Below are positions 11,400 through 29,963 of a DNA stretch of 39,997 bases, piece after piece. The stretch spans positions 1-39,997 of the IMG/VR virus record IMGVR_UViG_3300020371_000023. One strand, 5' to 3'. Source of the stretch: a virus. The notes below the pieces were generated by a model, which made no database searches, was not told where the DNA came from, and was given only the letters and a program-made list of their open reading frames with translations. The position numbers were made by a program, and so were the translations under genes. Each line of letters opens with the position of its first letter. Position 1 is the stretch's first letter.

Positions 11400-11981
11400 G
11401 TGGAAACAATTTATTGGTTTGTCTTAAATGCTAATGACTTACCTCCTTCAGAAACATATTTACCTGTACAAAGATACAATGAAGATACATTTGGTTGTCC
11501 TCAAATGGTTAAATATAATCAACATAGAGCATATATAGAAAGTCCTGTATCATTTGAGCTACGTAATAATGAACTATATGTAGAAAAAGAAATGCCTCGT
11601 ATGTTTGACATAATGCACACGGGACATAAAGTAATGCAGATGCCTTATTGTTTTCTTACAAAAAATAAAAACATTAAATTATTTTTACAAAATATATCTA
11701 CATTAGAAATGACAGAAGGCATTATACCTATAGGTAAATATCCTAGAATTATAAATTATACATTTAAAGGTAGCGGAAAAATTAATCAAGGTGACCCAAT
11801 TATACAAGTGTTGTTTAACGAACCTGTAAAATTAGTACATATAGTACCTAATGAAAGTATTTTAAATTTTGTACAATCAACATATCAAATATCTCATTAC
11901 AAAAATAATATAACTAAAATATTTAATAGAACTTCTATTGCTTACCCAAGAAAAGAGTTAGATAAATGTCAAAGAAGATAA
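11400..11981 (+). CDS. Unknown protein related to the 13119-13835 product, GTG start
   Basis: 193 residues. GTG 11400 is chosen because AGGAG lies seven bases upstream. Features are a CP dipeptide (residues 33-34), a Pro-containing beta region and a C-terminal section with GDPIIQVLFNEPVKLVHI (about 136-153). The product of 13119-13835 shows the same order: CP, then a strand region, then GTPLITLLPV...KVKL. The two therefore look like distant paralogues flanking the halogenase gene. Such small beta proteins occur beside oxygenases and halogenases in marine phages. Function unknown. It overlaps the halogenase start by 16 nt. Confidence 0.55.
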   Translation: METIYWFVLNANDLPPSETYLPVQRYNEDTFGCPQMVKYNQHRAYIESPVSFELRNNELYVEKEMPRMFDIMHTGHKVMQMPYCFLTKNKNIKLFLQNISTLEMTEGIIPIGKYPRIINYTFKGSGKINQGDPIIQVLFNEPVKLVHIVPNESILNFVQSTYQISHYKNNITKIFNRTSIAYPRKELDKCQRR

Positions 11982-13129
11982 CAATATTAGGTAAAGGAAC
12001 TGCAGGTAGTATTGCTGCTGCACACTTTTCACACTATACAGAAGATGAAATAGAAGTTATATACGATAGCAATATACCTGAGGCTGCAGTAGGAGAAGGT
12101 TCTCAATTATCTTTGCCTAAATTACTGACAAACATATTTAATTTATCTTGGCTTGAGTTATCTAAAATAAATTACAATGCTAAACAAGGTATTATGTATC
12201 AAAACTGGGGTGCAAATAATTACTTTCACAATTTTCCTATACCTGAAAGTGCTTGGCATTTTAATGCATTAGGTCTACAAAATTTTATAAAAGAAAAAAT
12301 TGAACATAAAGTTAATTATATAGATAAACATATAAAAAATGTAAATGAATTAGATACTGATTATGTAATTGATTGTAGAGGTAAACCTACTATGGATGAT
12401 AGGTTTGCAATACAACATGATATGGTTATTAACTCAGCTTATGTAGTTCAATGTCCATGGGATTATCCTAAAATACAATATACATTAGCTATAGCTAGAC
12501 CATATGGTTGGGTATTTGGTGTTCCATTATCTAATAGATTGTCATTAGGTTATATGTATAATGATAAATTTAATACAGTTGATGAAGTTAAAAAAGATAT
12601 AGAAGAAGTTCTAAACCTATTAGAAGAAGAAGCAGACGGTAAAATAAATAATCTTTCATTTAATAATTATAAATTAAAACAAAACTATAGTGAGTATCAA
12701 TCACATAATGGTAACGCATCATTCTTTTTAGAACCATTAGAAGCTACCTCTATTGAAACTATTGACTTTATTAATAGACAAACATATGACCTTATATACA
12801 ATTCACATACTATTGATTTTGCACAACAAAAATTAGACATGTGGTTTGATGAAACTAATGTAATAATTATGATGCATTATGCAGCAGGTAGTAAATTTGA
12901 TACACCATTTTGGAAACATGCTGTAGAAAAAGGTTGGAATTGTTTAGACAATGCACCTATTACTTTTACAGAACAAGTACAAAATATACAAAGATATCTT
13001 GATAAACAAATACATAGTAATGAATTAGGTATATTTGGTGCAGGTTGGAATTTAAGAAGTCAAGCAGAAAATCTTATAGGATTAGGTATATACGATAAAC
13101 TTATAGAAAGGATTAAAGTTGCAAATTAG
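11966..13129 (+). CDS. FAD-dependent halogenase-like protein (tryptophan halogenase family)
   Basis: 387 residues. The N-terminus has the FAD Rossmann motif GKGTAGS (9-15) followed by VGEGS (42-46). The catalytic Lys of the family is present in NAKQGIMYQNW (Lys73), and the conserved Glu lies in FLEPLEATS (254-262; Glu259). The family signature WxWxIP appears as GWVFGVP (181-187), with the second Trp replaced by Phe. The protein is about 130-150 residues shorter than bacterial tryptophan halogenases. It would use reduced FAD, O2 and halide to make HOCl or HOBr, but the substrate is unknown. It sits in the tail-fibre region, as the halogenase-like genes of cyanophages do, with related genes on both sides. 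It may modify the fibre or a host surface molecule (inference). Confidence 0.75.
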   Translation: MSKKITILGKGTAGSIAAAHFSHYTEDEIEVIYDSNIPEAAVGEGSQLSLPKLLTNIFNLSWLELSKINYNAKQGIMYQNWGANNYFHNFPIPESAWHFNALGLQNFIKEKIEHKVNYIDKHIKNVNELDTDYVIDCRGKPTMDDRFAIQHDMVINSAYVVQCPWDYPKIQYTLAIARPYGWVFGVPLSNRLSLGYMYNDKFNTVDEVKKDIEEVLNLLEEEADGKINNLSFNNYKLKQNYSEYQSHNGNASFFLEPLEATSIETIDFINRQTYDLIYNSHTIDFAQQKLDMWFDETNVIIMMHYAAGSKFDTPFWKHAVEKGWNCLDNAPITFTEQVQNIQRYLDKQIHSNELGIFGAGWNLRSQAENLIGLGIYDKLIERIKVAN

Positions 13130-21841: not shown

Positions 21842-21886
21842 GTATTTTTCTGTACGATTACAAAAGTAAAGAGTGCAGAAAAATAC
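21842..21886 (-). promoter_or_regulatory. 17-base-loop hairpin, copy A
   Basis: Arms GTATTTTTCTGTAC (21842-21855) and GTGCAGAAAAATAC (21873-21886), 14 pairs with one G-U on the upper strand, enclose GATTACAAAAGTAAAGA (17 bases, 21856-21872). On the gene strand the hairpin ends 13 bases before the start codon of the Rad52-like gene, with AAAGG between. It fits the loop consensus shared by the six copies. Confidence 0.75.
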
Positions 21887-23904: not shown

Positions 23905-25329
23905 CTATTGATTTAGTTTTAATGCATATTCTTTTACTTCATCTATATCTTTTAGATTAATAATCTTATGCTTGGTACATATATCGTAACATTCTTTAAG
24001 CAAGTTAAAGCCTGATGTATCACCTGTCGCACCGAATACATACATATCGGACACCCAGATTCTTCTAGCTGGCATAGTAGCTAACCATTCTAAAGCTGGG
24101 CCGTCAACAACATTACCACCACCTGAGTGATTGTATAGATATGTATCTGTAACACGCTTACCATTCTGTGCAATGATATGCAAGTCACCTGTAATATGTG
24201 AACCGTTGTACATTGCAATGTTAACAGCAGGTAATAACTTCATAATTTCTAGTATGTCATCACTGTTAAAGTTCATAGAACCTGATGCGTCTATCAATAT
24301 AGTACCGCCTTTAACATTAAGTTTTTGTTTGAATATCTTTTTGTCAATACAAAATCTGTTAATGTATTTAGGATTGTAACCGTAATCCATAGGTCTATAT
24401 TGCCTAGAACCTTTTAGTTTAGATTGCAAGTTAACTGTTAATGGTGGTGTATGTATATTCATTTTCCCCCAATAACCTATACCACTGCCTGAATGATAAT
24501 TCATCTTGTTAAGTAATTCATTACGCATTCTATCTTCTAATGATTTAACAGTACCATCTATTTCACCGTCATCACTTTCTTCGCTTTCTTCACCTTCTGC
24601 TGATGATGGCTGTGGTACTGGTGGTGTGTATGGTTCTGGTGGGTCCATAAACATATCCAAATATTTACTTAATACTGCTGCTTGCTTTTGAACTTTCCTA
24701 TAACTAGGTGTTTGTCCTGCACGGTTATTCATAATTGCCCTAGCAAATTGTTGTATTAAAGATGTTGCTACATTAAGTTCTGCTTTACGCATAGGTGATA
24801 ATGTTATATCATCTTGTGCTTGTTCTAACAATGCAAATAATTGTTTGACTTGGTCTGTACCTTCTGAAAAGTTGTACAAACTTTGTCCTCTTTGCATTGT
24901 AAAATTATCTATACCATACAATAACAAGTTAGCAATAGGCATATTCTTAATCATATTTGCTATATAACCTCTATGAATATCCATACACATAGTAGGTTCG
25001 TTAATAGGTTTGTCGGCTCGTGATAATAAATAATTAACACGGACACTTTCTAATACATCTACTGCTTCTTTGCGTGTACCTGGTTTTAGTTTACCGCGTG
25101 TAGCTGGTGACCATTTAGCATAACCTAACTGCTTGCGTCTAATCATACGACTATGATTAACACCACATAATGCACAATGTCTATCCAAAGGTACATACAT
25201 TTTCTTATTTAGATTATCTGTATCTGGTTCTGGATTTATATCGGTTGTTTCATATACATCCCAACTATCCCCAGTTACAATTTGGGGATAGGGATATGCT
25301 TTGTCGTTACTATACACGGGATATGTCAA
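23905..25329 (-). CDS. Von Willebrand A-domain protein (CobT-like)
   Basis: 474 residues from TTG 25329 (a GTG at 25317 is an alternative). CALC with a nearby His (52-59) near the N-terminus may bind zinc. A helical region (about 85-225) is followed by a Pro/acidic linker (230-258). The C-terminal domain has DASGSM (347-352), the MIDAS metal site, and WVSD (425-428). It overlaps the AAA+ gene by 20 nt, and such pairs (MoxR with VWA) act together as in CobS/CobT cobaltochelatase, Mg-chelatase and protein-remodelling systems. In phages they are often labelled CobST, but the substrate here is unknown. Confidence 0.75.
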   Translation of the reverse strand: MTYPVYSNDKAYPYPQIVTGDSWDVYETTDINPEPDTDNLNKKMYVPLDRHCALCGVNHSRMIRRKQLGYAKWSPATRGKLKPGTRKEAVDVLESVRVNYLLSRADKPINEPTMCMDIHRGYIANMIKNMPIANLLLYGIDNFTMQRGQSLYNFSEGTDQVKQLFALLEQAQDDITLSPMRKAELNVATSLIQQFARAIMNNRAGQTPSYRKVQKQAAVLSKYLDMFMDPPEPYTPPVPQPSSAEGEESEESDDGEIDGTVKSLEDRMRNELLNKMNYHSGSGIGYWGKMNIHTPPLTVNLQSKLKGSRQYRPMDYGYNPKYINRFCIDKKIFKQKLNVKGGTILIDASGSMNFNSDDILEIMKLLPAVNIAMYNGSHITGDLHIIAQNGKRVTDTYLYNHSGGGNVVDGPALEWLATMPARRIWVSDMYVFGATGDTSGFNLLKECYDICTKHKIINLKDIDEVKEYALKLNQ

Positions 25330-26029
25330 TCGCGTCTACTAATTCTTCGGCATTATCACCGAAGACTAGCTTACCTGCAGTTTCTGGTGTGAAACCTTTA
25401 GCTTGTAAGTCAAAGAATTCTTTCCAAGCACGAACAGATATGCGTTCTTCTGGGTCATCAACAAGCGTAGTGTCATTGATAACATCGTGCCATTCCTTAG
25501 GGAATTGTGCTAATGCACTTGGATGTATAGTATTTACGTGAATTTTGACTGGAAACCTATCTTTCAATGCAAGTGGTAGACTTTCTGGTGGGCTGTTAGT
25601 TGTAGCAACAACTTGAAAACCTTCCGCTGGTCTAACTGTTTCCTTTGTATCATTGTTAAGTGTTAACATAGCAATGTCTTGGTCATCTAGTATAGCGTGC
25701 AAGAATGTCATAGCGTCTGGTGATGCGTGGTCAATCTCATTGATAACCAATCTACCGCCATTACGCCAGGCTTGTATTGCAATACCATCGTGCCATTCAA
25801 ATGTACCTGTGCTAGATGGTTTGTAAAAACCTTCTAAGTTTGCAGAAGCTGTGTCTTCTGTCATAGTAATTTGAAATACATTAGCAAGTCCATCCATAGT
25901 CAATGGTGTACCTTGCTTAACTGCACTGTATGTTTTACCTGTACCTGGTGGCCCGTATAATAATACACGCCTGGATTTACCTAGTACTTGTTGTATTAAT
26001 TTCCAACAATCGTTGTTAGTATTTGTCAT
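25310..26029 (-). CDS. MoxR-type AAA+ ATPase (CobS-like)
   Basis: 239 residues. Walker A GPPGTGKT (26-33), Walker B LVINEID (94-100), sensor-1-like ATTN (142-145) and an arginine-finger segment LKDRF (155-159) fit the MoxR/CobS AAA+ family. The protein is a bare ATPase core, shorter than bacterial MoxR proteins. AAGGAAGGAAC gives a strong ribosome site for ATG 26029. The gene overlaps the VWA gene, so the two products probably form a hexamer-plus-adaptor complex that remodels or inserts metal into a target. Confidence 0.8.
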   Translation of the reverse strand: MTNTNNDCWKLIQQVLGKSRRVLLYGPPGTGKTYSAVKQGTPLTMDGLANVFQITMTEDTASANLEGFYKPSSTGTFEWHDGIAIQAWRNGGRLVINEIDHASPDAMTFLHAILDDQDIAMLTLNNDTKETVRPAEGFQVVATTNSPPESLPLALKDRFPVKIHVNTIHPSALAQFPKEWHDVINDTTLVDDPEERISVRAWKEFFDLQAKGFTPETAGKLVFGDNAEELVDAIDISRV

Positions 26030-26349: not shown

Positions 26350-26813
26350 TCGTCTTGTCCTTTCAAGTATTCTTCAACATCGTTAGCTATATTGTCGCCT
26401 GATGTTATTGTATCTAGATTATTAATAGTCATATCCATTAACTTATGTGTATCTTTTGTCAAGTGACATTGTATAGATGTTGGTTCTATTGATAACCAAC
26501 TTCTAAATACACCACGCTTTTCACTATCTTGTCTAATCTGTTCTATCTCTGGTATAGTAAATGTTTCTCTACCTTCTGTTAGTGGATGCTCGGTCATAAA
26601 GTCTGTCATAACTTCTGCTCTAGCTTGTGTAACTATAGACATAGCTTGAACTATTGCTTGTAGATTAGTTACTGCGTCTACTTCTACTTGATATACCTCT
26701 GGGTCATCAAATGCATCTTGTTTATCACCGTGACTATCAAAACCTGCAAATGCTATAGACACTGTATAATTTTTTACATTACCTTGTGGATTTGCACGGA
26801 TATGTCCTCCCAT
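26346..26813 (-). CDS. Unknown early protein (155 aa)
   Basis: 155 residues, N-terminal MGGHIRANPQG then a beta-rich acidic middle and a helical C-terminus (about 110-150). It overlaps its neighbours by a few bases on both sides. No family recognised. It is part of the block with the AAA+/VWA pair. Confidence 0.55.
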   Translation of the reverse strand: MGGHIRANPQGNVKNYTVSIAFAGFDSHGDKQDAFDDPEVYQVEVDAVTNLQAIVQAMSIVTQARAEVMTDFMTEHPLTEGRETFTIPEIEQIRQDSEKRGVFRSWLSIEPTSIQCHLTKDTHKLMDMTINNLDTITSGDNIANDVEEYLKGQDE

Positions 26814-27040
26814 TATTCCTCACTTTCATACCAACTATCGTTGGCTTTGTATGCTTTTTGTATTTGGTATATCACTGCTTCGTGTAGCATTGAACACCAG
26901 CCTTTTACTTTGTCGTCAAGTTTTTGATAGTCACTAGATTTAGCTGCGTTATCTAAATCATTGAGTGTCCATACAATAACTTGTTTAAGTTGGTCATTGC
27001 TTAAGTCGTTAAGCATTTCGTCAACATCTGGTATAGCCAT
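26813..27040 (-). CDS. Unknown early protein (75 aa)
   Basis: 75 residues. ATG 27040 is chosen over the longer frame at 27088 because AGGAG lies about five bases upstream and the longer frame would run through the conserved hairpin at 27050-27092. The protein is acidic and helical (MAIPDVDEMLNDLSN). No family recognised. It is preceded by a 17-base-loop hairpin and a structured leader, so it may be regulated at the RNA level. Confidence 0.55.
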   Translation of the reverse strand: MAIPDVDEMLNDLSNDQLKQVIVWTLNDLDNAAKSSDYQKLDDKVKGWCSMLHEAVIYQIQKAYKANDSWYESEE

Positions 27041-27049
27041 ATACACTCC

Positions 27050-27092
27050 TCTCTTGTCGGCTGATTGCAAAAATGCTGAAGCCGACAAGAGA
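27050..27092 (-). promoter_or_regulatory. 17-base-loop hairpin, copy B
   Basis: TCTCTTGTCGGCT (27050-27062) and AGCCGACAAGAGA (27080-27092) form 13 perfect pairs around GATTGCAAAAATGCTGA (27063-27079, 17 bases). On the gene strand the stem ends directly on the ribosome site AGGAG (27050-27046). One more G-U and a G-C pair at the base (27049/27093, 27048/27094) would tie up part of that site. Confidence 0.8.
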
Positions 27093-27132
27093 AGGGCATT
27101 TCTTATGTCGGCAACAACATTTATTTATGGAT

Positions 27133-27290
27133 GTTACTCGGTATGAATAACTTGTAATCTACTTCCACCTATCTGCAGCACGCTACAGCTTACAGTTCTT
27201 AATAGATTACAAGTTACTCACACTATGGACATCACTTGCGTGACGGCTAGTAAGGGGCCTAGCAGCGTGAGTAACCTTGCATTTCAAGTG
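27133..27290 (-). ncRNA. Structured leader with mutually exclusive pairings (candidate riboswitch or attenuator)
   Basis: On the minus strand GTTACTCAC (27275-27267) can pair with GTGAGTAAC (27221-27213). The same 27223-27203 strand can instead form a 21-pair hairpin, with two G-U pairs, with 27161-27141, so the two folds exclude each other. GAGTAAC (27139-27133) is a third possible partner. TCAC-GCAA-GTGA (27243-27232) is a GNRA tetraloop hairpin. CAAGTG (27285-27290) pairs with CACTTG (27233-27238) as another alternative. It lies between the gene ending at 27284 and the 75-residue gene. The two G-U pairs that become A-C on the plus strand favour the minus strand. Confidence 0.6.
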
Positions 27291-27457
27291 AGTGTTTCCG
27301 TACTTGAACTGTCTTGTGCAATCGATAGTTTTTCTACCATAAATCTTTTTTCTATTACATCATCTAGTTTACATTCCTCACATTGTTTGTAAGGATTTTT
27401 AGTACAAGATAAATATGGACACGATAAATCTATATTGCTATAGTGTTTAGTGGTCAC
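27284..27457 (-). CDS. Cys-rich small protein (57 aa), GTG start
   Basis: 57 residues from GTG 27457, chosen because GGAGG lies five bases upstream; an earlier TTG at 27481 lacks such a site. Four Cys occur as C-x4-C and C-x2-C (about residues 13, 18, 26, 29), a zinc-finger-like spacing, followed by a helix and a Ser/Thr tail. It overlaps the upstream gene by 11 nt. The family is not recognised; a small nucleic-acid-binding protein is plausible. Confidence 0.5.
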   Translation of the reverse strand: MTTKHYSNIDLSCPYLSCTKNPYKQCEECKLDDVIEKRFMVEKLSIAQDSSSTETLT

Positions 27458-28850: not shown

Positions 28851-28897
28851 TATATTCTGTCTGTCGATTGCGTAAGTGCAGAGACAGACAGAATATA
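28851..28897 (-). promoter_or_regulatory. 17-base-loop hairpin, copy C
   Basis: TATATTCTGTCTGTC (28851-28865) and GACAGACAGAATATA (28883-28897) are 15 perfect pairs around GATTGCGTAAGTGCAGA (28866-28882, 17 bases). It fills the gap between the stop at 28905 and the start at 28832. The loop shares GATTGC and TGC-x-GA with copy B while the arms are unrelated. Confidence 0.8.
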
Positions 28898-29657: not shown

Positions 29658-29710
29658 ATATCTGTCTGTTCTCTCGAACTCATAAAATGAGAGAGAGAAC
29701 AGAAAGATAT
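29658..29710 (-). promoter_or_regulatory. 17-base-loop hairpin, copy D
   Basis: TCTGTTCTCTC (29665-29675) pairs with GAGAGAACAGA (29693-29703) around GAACTCATAAAATGAGA (29676-29692, 17 bases). ATATCT/AGATAT (29658-29663, 29705-29710) lengthens the stem past one mismatch. It lies in the gap between the gene ending at 29711 and the start at 29616. Confidence 0.75.
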
Positions 29711-29902
29711 TTAATTATTGCAGAAGTTACAAGCGCATAACCAAACAAGATTATCATCTTGTTTAACTAATACATAACTGCTTTCGCACATATTGTAATC
29801 CTTTCCGATTTCATAAATCGGAAGGAAAGGATTACATTTGTGTAAAGCATTATGATATTGTCTACGCATAATGGAACTTAAAACAACTACATAGTCTTTC
29901 AT
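29711..29902 (-). CDS. Small early protein (63 aa), or a 26-residue protein from 29791
   Basis: The frame from ATG 29902 gives 63 residues, but its middle runs through the hairpin at 29794-29836. An alternative start ATG 29791 has AAAGGA eight bases before it, inside the hairpin stem, and gives 26 residues ending CACNFCNN. Both end at 29711. Cys at the end (CACNFC) suggests metal binding. Which start is used is unclear; the hairpin copy E favours the shorter gene. Confidence 0.4.
   Translation of the reverse strand: MKDYVVVLSSIMRRQYHNALHKCNPFLPIYEIGKDYNMCESSYVLVKQDDNLVWLCACNFCNN
29794..29836 (-). promoter_or_regulatory. 17-base-loop hairpin, copy E
   Basis: TGTAATCCTTTCC (29794-29806) and GGAAAGGATTACA (29824-29836), 13 perfect pairs, enclose GATTTCATAAATCGGAA (29807-29823, 17 bases). 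The loop itself can extend pairing (GATTT/AAATC). On the gene strand the Shine-Dalgarno AAAGGA for ATG 29791 lies within the stem, so folding would hide it. Confidence 0.8.
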
Positions 29903-29905
29903 TTT

Positions 29906-29963
29906 AATATAATATCCTTCTATCCGACTTCATAAGTCGGAAGGATAGAAGGAATATTATATT
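29906..29963 (-). promoter_or_regulatory. 17-base-loop hairpin, copy F
   Basis: TCCTTCTATCC (29915-29925) and GGATAGAAGGA (29943-29953) enclose GACTTCATAAGTCGGAA (29926-29942, 17 bases). Nine more pairs (29906-29914 with 29955-29963) follow after one bulged A. It is the first element of the leftward arm and contains AGAAGGA, the likely ribosome site for ATG 29902. Confidence 0.8.

Follow-up and report, generated by a model that had tools for sequence, protein, structure and literature searches.

On the minus strand of an uncultured virus contig, a gap of ~240 nt separates a 56-aa ORF from a 75-aa gene. According to the original prediction, the transcript of this gap has two folds that exclude each other and looks like a riboswitch or protein-controlled attenuator for the 75-residue gene. 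The locus raises two questions, namely whether both folds are real and, if they are, what they control.

The whole stretch of DNA analysed, hereafter the window, is a 40-kb contig (39,997 nt) with a G+C content of 29-39% over 2-kb stretches. Its small early genes form a leftward operon on the minus strand from ~30.3 kb, and the packaging and structural genes lie on the opposite strand. The 75-aa gene has no confident Pfam or PHROG family, and a family search with the 56-aa ORF gave no match. The bistable element described below lies within the gap (Table 1).

Table 1. Features of the bistable element and its surroundings in the window (all on the minus strand)
Feature	Position	Strand	Sequence and observations
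56-aa ORF, upstream of the element	27284..27454	-	motif CPY..C....CEEC; frame open in relatives
P0 hairpin	27283..27308	-	TTCAAGT/ACTTGAA; overlaps the last codons and the stop (27286-27284) of the 56-aa ORF
Strand A, 5' side of P1	27264..27275	-	GTTACTCACGCT; 12-bp pairing with X in 13 of 13 elements
P2 hairpin of the three-way junction	27246..27263	-	GCTAG/CTAGC; 65/65 cells paired, 2 double-change pairs
P3 hairpin	27230..27245	-	GCAA tetraloop; 39/39 cells paired, both bases changed in all 3 pairs tested
Strand X (switching strand); forms either P1 (as its 3' side) or the long hairpin (as its 5' side)	27203..27224	-	pairing and covariation
Hairpin tip, type alpha	27162..27202	-	41 nt; exchangeable between phages, from tip comparisons
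Strand B, 3' side of the long hairpin	27141..27161	-	247/247 cells paired with X
Strand C	27133..27139	-	GAGTAAC; partner of A (7 of 7 pairs), alternatively of B
Linker	27093..27132	-	weak local alternatives AACAT/ATGTT and GCCGACA/TGTCGGC; weak evidence
Hairpin B	27050..27092	-	13-bp stem, 17-nt loop; directly 5' of the Shine-Dalgarno sequence AGGAG (27050-27046)
Leader hairpins (six in the window)	21842-21886, 27050-27092, 28851-28897, 29665-29703, 29794-29836, 29915-29953	-	
75-aa gene	26813..27040	-	relatives in 21 viral loci

Two exclusive pairings in the leader

The segment 27223-27203 had been predicted to pair with either of two partners. Its nine-pair helix with 27275-27267 was confirmed with nine of nine Watson-Crick pairs and is in fact longer: GUUACUCACGCU (27275-27264) pairs with AGUGUGAGUAAC (27224-27213) over 12 bp, and this A-X helix closes a three-way junction. 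The 21-pair hairpin with 27161-27141 was also found, with all 21 pairs formed (19 Watson-Crick and two G-U), and the minimum-energy fold extends it to 23 pairs. The GNRA hairpin expected between them is GUCAC-GCAA-GUGAU at 27244-27231. The proposed third partner, 27139-27133, does pair with strand A, but this partner is confined to the window clade. Since strand C can also form 7 bp with strand B (GUUAUUC/GAGUAAC), the switch in the window clade would be a four-strand exchange, in which A-X and B-C are replaced by A-C and X-B or the reverse.

The fold z-scores were -4.9 for the 201-nt leader, -4.9 for the three-way junction alone and -6.9 for the X-B hairpin. The window contains the A/X/B triple once, on its minus strand, and not on its plus strand; 25 random sequences with matching dinucleotide composition contained none. 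The linker alternatives survive one double and several one-sided changes among five sequences.

For the window, the A-X state was computed to be 3.7 kcal/mol less stable than the minimum-energy state. When growing transcripts were folded, as equilibrium folds of prefixes and not as kinetics, the two pairings arose in order: the A-X probability was 0.9-1.0 until the 3' end came near 27150, and X-B and then A-C appeared. In the predicted course of folding, the RNA transcribed from A to X would form the three-way junction closed by the 12-bp A-X helix. When B emerges, X could leave A and form the long X-B hairpin.

Pairing and covariation among relatives

Five IMG/VR contigs of near relatives carry the element before the 75-aa gene, with all helices intact in all five. 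One of them (L001/L004) shares its leader sequence with the window. P0 is 97-100% identical in nucleotides in the remaining four, the rest of the 56-aa ORF being 64-78% identical (L006-L008). The P0 stem is invariant in the window clade, and most of the distant relatives have a hairpin of other sequence at its place; P3 is swapped for a different hairpin in L036 and L057. At 27312-27284 on the minus strand, the final nine codons of the 56-aa ORF are near-invariant in nucleotides (one silent change), and the rest of the ORF has diverged.

Distant relatives, in which the 75-aa protein is 65-80% similar, had seemed to lack the element because blastn and exact DNA patterns miss it. This view was wrong. 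A covariance model built from P0 and the junction found the element in them at another gene position, downstream of the 75-aa gene (29-60 bits, E 1e-12 to 6e-5), and the long hairpins come after the junction there too. In every case the early operon carries the element in sense orientation. The model gave no match in L061, a locus of a marine Actinomycetota genome bin, or in the more distant viral loci L042-L044; weak matches in L047 and the Actinomycetota bin were judged not to be the element. None of 42 genomes from the order of this bin contained it, a weak negative since that search had no positive control. The DNA pattern of the element had no match in genome contigs, and a scan with the P0-loop pattern returned the known contigs and five unrelated chance matches.

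Thirteen elements, all from one related group of phages, were aligned by structure. L035 ends at its contig edge just past B, and its final bases were taken from the near-identical neighbour L036. All 13 elements keep both pairings; relatives with only one of them, which the original prediction had named as grounds for refutation, were thus not seen. For A-X, 156 of 156 cells are paired and 4 of 12 pairs are doubly compensated; for X-B, the values are 247 of 247 cells and 10 of 19 pairs. Several rows of this table share the same X or B sequence. When only distinct sequences were counted in the tool alignment, the ten junctions had 170/170 cells paired with six double-change pairs, and the nine X-B rows had 171/171 cells paired with nine double-change pairs. 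None of 500 shuffles equalled the observed pairing or covariation score for either helix, a count that overstates independence because all of the phages come from one related group. In slid controls, 18-54% of the cells pair.

At bases 6, 7 and 11 of X (numbered 5' to 3' along the 12-nt strand of P1), X has changed and both A and B have been re-matched, as in GUUAC/GUAAC/GUUAU to GCUAC/GUAGC/GCUAU. L007 is an intermediate at the re-matched positions, with U-G on the A side. As judged from the aligned sequences and modelled pairing, the A-X and X-B helices are both shown to be under selection, which is the covariation in relatives that the original prediction had proposed as a check. A case for conserved alternative folds is usually made from the covariation of one fold. 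Since both exclusive helices covary here, and a strand and its two rival partners have changed together at three positions, the bistability itself becomes testable. We consider it very likely that the structure of the element and its bistability are real.

The alternation of A, X, B and C could also be explained by a DNA element, in which inverted copies of a protein site (a replication origin, or a target of recombination or transposition) mimic RNA structure; tandem units and tips that swap independently of their flanks, described below, would fit such a site. The non-Watson-Crick cells in the distinct-sequence tables, however, are 45 G-U and no A-C when read on the gene-sense strand, and this identifies the folded molecule as the RNA of that strand. 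A and B differ mostly by C against U. As G-U pairing tolerates these differences, both fit X, and the two are not equal copies of one site. P2 and P3 also covary, and the element is present at one locus per genome, with no further copies in the genomes searched. We therefore regard a DNA element as very improbable.

The exclusivity of the two pairings is accompanied by closeness in energy in most members: the states are 0-4.4 kcal/mol apart in nine of the 12 members folded. The gap is 3.6-4.4 kcal/mol in the window clade except L007, and farther from that clade it is 0.0 (L040), 2.3, 3.0, 3.4, 3.8, 5.5, 6.1 and 7.4 kcal/mol. The last value belongs to L031, in which X-B is the more stable. L007, which has two hairpins, has a gap of 10.8 kcal/mol for its first X and 6.8 kcal/mol for its second. 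Because X-B is clearly more stable in some members (L031 and L007), A-X could be a mere folding intermediate there.

Exchangeable hairpin tips and the neighbouring genes

Two long X-B hairpins stand in tandem in L007, L037, L038 and L060, and the other members have one. Their tips fall into recurrent types. Alpha (41 nt), the commonest, occurs in the window clade and the L035-L041 clade, and beta (45-49 nt) occurs in L057, L060 and L031. A beta-like sequence joins the two hairpins in L037 and L038, and several further tips are unique. In L007, 2723-2815 is an additional, divergent tandem hairpin module whose basal stem is kept by a compensating A-U to G-C change.

Alpha tips are identical at 40-41 of 41 positions between phages whose junctions are only 64-91% identical. 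The window and L005 match at 62/63 positions of the junction and at 92/92 of the linker and hairpin B, yet their tips match at 32/41. In L006 and L008 the whole 88-nt hairpin is identical, with flanks matching at 151/178 positions (Fisher 1.5e-5). The hairpin cassette is therefore swapped between phages irrespective of its flanks. Within the alpha type, covariation of the stem bases persists. On comparison of sequences and their predicted folds, the X-B hairpin was shown to have an exchangeable tip and to be duplicable in tandem. That phages exchange tips points to modular evolution of the RNA, with some selective pressure behind it. We propose, only tentatively, an undescribed modular class of marine-phage RNA in which one strand is contested by the three-way junction and by hairpin cassettes that can be exchanged and repeated in tandem. 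If so, tip swaps between phages would change what the RNA senses or binds, with the switch retained.

The gene downstream of the element is the 75-aa, 157-aa or 201-aa gene depending on the clade. In the window clade, the order is the CxxC gene, the 56-aa ORF, the element, the 75-aa gene and a 155-aa gene. G004-type phages have the 75-aa gene, 84-aa and 209-aa genes, the CxxC gene, the element and a 157-aa gene, which by eye resembles the 155-aa gene of the window clade. The L040-type order is the 75-aa gene, a 48-aa ORF, the element, the 201-aa gene and a gene that is ParB-like by eye. No constant association of the element with one gene or pathway was found among these contexts. In each of them the element starts ~8-33 nt from the upstream stop codon, so that a terminating ribosome would cover P0 or A.

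No U-tract follows X-B or hairpin B, no terminator-like site was found on the minus strand in this region, and no conserved coupling of either fold to the Shine-Dalgarno sequence or ribosome site was recognised among the members. A platform sequestering the Shine-Dalgarno sequence through GCCGACA/TGTCGGC was considered and rejected as not general; five sequences keep that pairing by G-U changes only. As the downstream genes differ and there is no terminator U-tract, the element is no attenuator dedicated to the 75-aa gene. The role first proposed for it agrees with the window clade, where this gene directly follows the element and part of its Shine-Dalgarno sequence is paired within hairpin B. 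In G004/G005-type phages and the L035-L041 clade, however, the 75-aa gene lies upstream of the element. A riboswitch or attenuator specific for that gene is largely refuted by this gene order and is scarcely tenable.

The element does resemble riboswitch and attenuator leaders in having a junction closed by P1, the 3' strand of which is re-used in a downstream hairpin, and in conserving both pairings with energies that are close in most members. It differs from them in that no terminator, conserved ribosome-site output, constant regulated gene or Rfam match was found, and in its tandem hairpins with swapped tips. With Rfam 15, no family reached its gathering threshold in the window, and among the matches listed for the elements of the window, L057, L038 and L060, none came near a gathering score. 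Weak matches of the microRNA type were set aside; they lie far under the gathering scores and are a usual outcome for a long hairpin. The element is probably an undescribed RNA switch. Our best reading is a new bistable RNA family, new to Rfam, in phages of probable marine actinobacteria.

The function that we favour, with about even confidence, is a cis-acting two-state RNA of the early operon that is not specific to the 75-residue gene. The timing of transcription might set the choice between the states, as might the ribosome that completes the upstream ORF, or binding of the junction or tip by a protein or ligand. The chosen state would then act in cis on expression of the downstream operon.

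Close behind this cis-acting switch we place a phage non-coding RNA that is released from the operon transcript by cleavage and acts on its own, with the junction as scaffold and with interchangeable tips that would bind or titrate some factor of the host or the phage. This alternative is a serious one, though we hold it to be less probable. It would account for hairpins that are single or tandem, for downstream genes that differ, and for alpha and beta tips that keep their sequence and turn up on different stems, with alpha swapped independently of the junction. A promoter or terminator of its own was not recognised, in a promoter scan covering sigma-70-type sequences only. In such an RNA, A-X would be a conserved folding intermediate, but a mere intermediate need not keep 12 unbroken covarying pairs.

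Another cis-acting possibility is that the RNA modifies the transcribing polymerase. The HK022 put and Bacillus EAR processive antitermination RNAs are structured, lie within operons and act on downstream transcription whatever the gene. The element is likewise a structured RNA inside an operon, in sense orientation within a long early one, with no tie to one downstream gene. It differs in that no similarity to them was found with Rfam. It lies ~3 kb into the operon, not near the start, and for antitermination two states are unnecessary. We regard this reading as improbable. The two-state switch remains our favoured function. The set of elements gives a concrete starting point for studying how genes are controlled in phages of marine hosts that are uncultured and probably actinobacterial.

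Leader hairpins and neighbouring observations

The hairpin predicted downstream of the element (hairpin B), with a ribosome site, is present before the Shine-Dalgarno sequence, but it is one of a genome-wide set of hairpins that is distinct from the bistable element. The six minus-strand hairpins of this set in the window have stems of 11-15 bp and loops of 17 nt, and mostly stand just before a gene. The loop pattern TYNNNAYTTWYGNARTC occurs in five of the six against 0.08 expected, a value that is only a guide because the pattern was drawn from these same loops. A pattern-free count, the fairer test, gave 4-6 such hairpins per genome against 0.15-0.35 in random sequence. In relatives, such hairpins precede orthologous genes, among them the 75-aa gene and a Rad52-like annealing gene (Pfam match just below cut-off), with different stems. 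In G004/G005-type phages and the L035-L041 clade, only its own hairpin precedes the 75-aa gene. The Shine-Dalgarno sequence, partly covered in the window clade, lies outside the stem in other members of the set.

Hairpins of the same kind were also seen in a second clade (L037 211-1030, L038 33-1010, L040 87-990), with 5' UCC or UCA followed by an inner stem of the GACCTC..GAGGTC type, which itself varies compensatorily. The leader-hairpin set is a candidate regulon of an RNA-binding protein, or a candidate group of mRNA-stabilising sites.

Among published elements, those that we found to resemble hairpin B most closely are the extended start-associated sequences (ESAS) of cluster K mycobacteriophages, inverted repeats that stand immediately before the translation starts of some early genes (PMC3203893). 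These are conserved by gene, with conserved 17-bp arms, a variable 4-13 bp spacer and an adjacent 13-bp SAS (PMC3203893). Hairpin B is alike in being an inverted repeat before an early-gene start that is conserved by gene; its set is unlike ESAS in that the stems vary, a 13-17-nt loop is conserved and there is no SAS. The 13-bp SAS, GGGATAGGAGCCC, had no match at two or fewer mismatches.

Most of the terminase and capsid matches are to phages of actinobacteria, and an Actinomycetota metagenome bin is the single cellular record in which the 75-aa gene family was found. These matches are no more than suggestive of marine actinobacteria as the hosts. Two further gene observations were made in the window. 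A gene resembling tryptophan halogenase (Pfam PF04820, E 1.6e-35) lies amid the structural genes at 11966-13129 on the plus strand. In the early operon, at 23905-26029 on the minus strand, a MoxR-like AAA ATPase forms a pair with the next protein, of 474 aa, in which a VWA-like DASGSM motif was recognised by eye.
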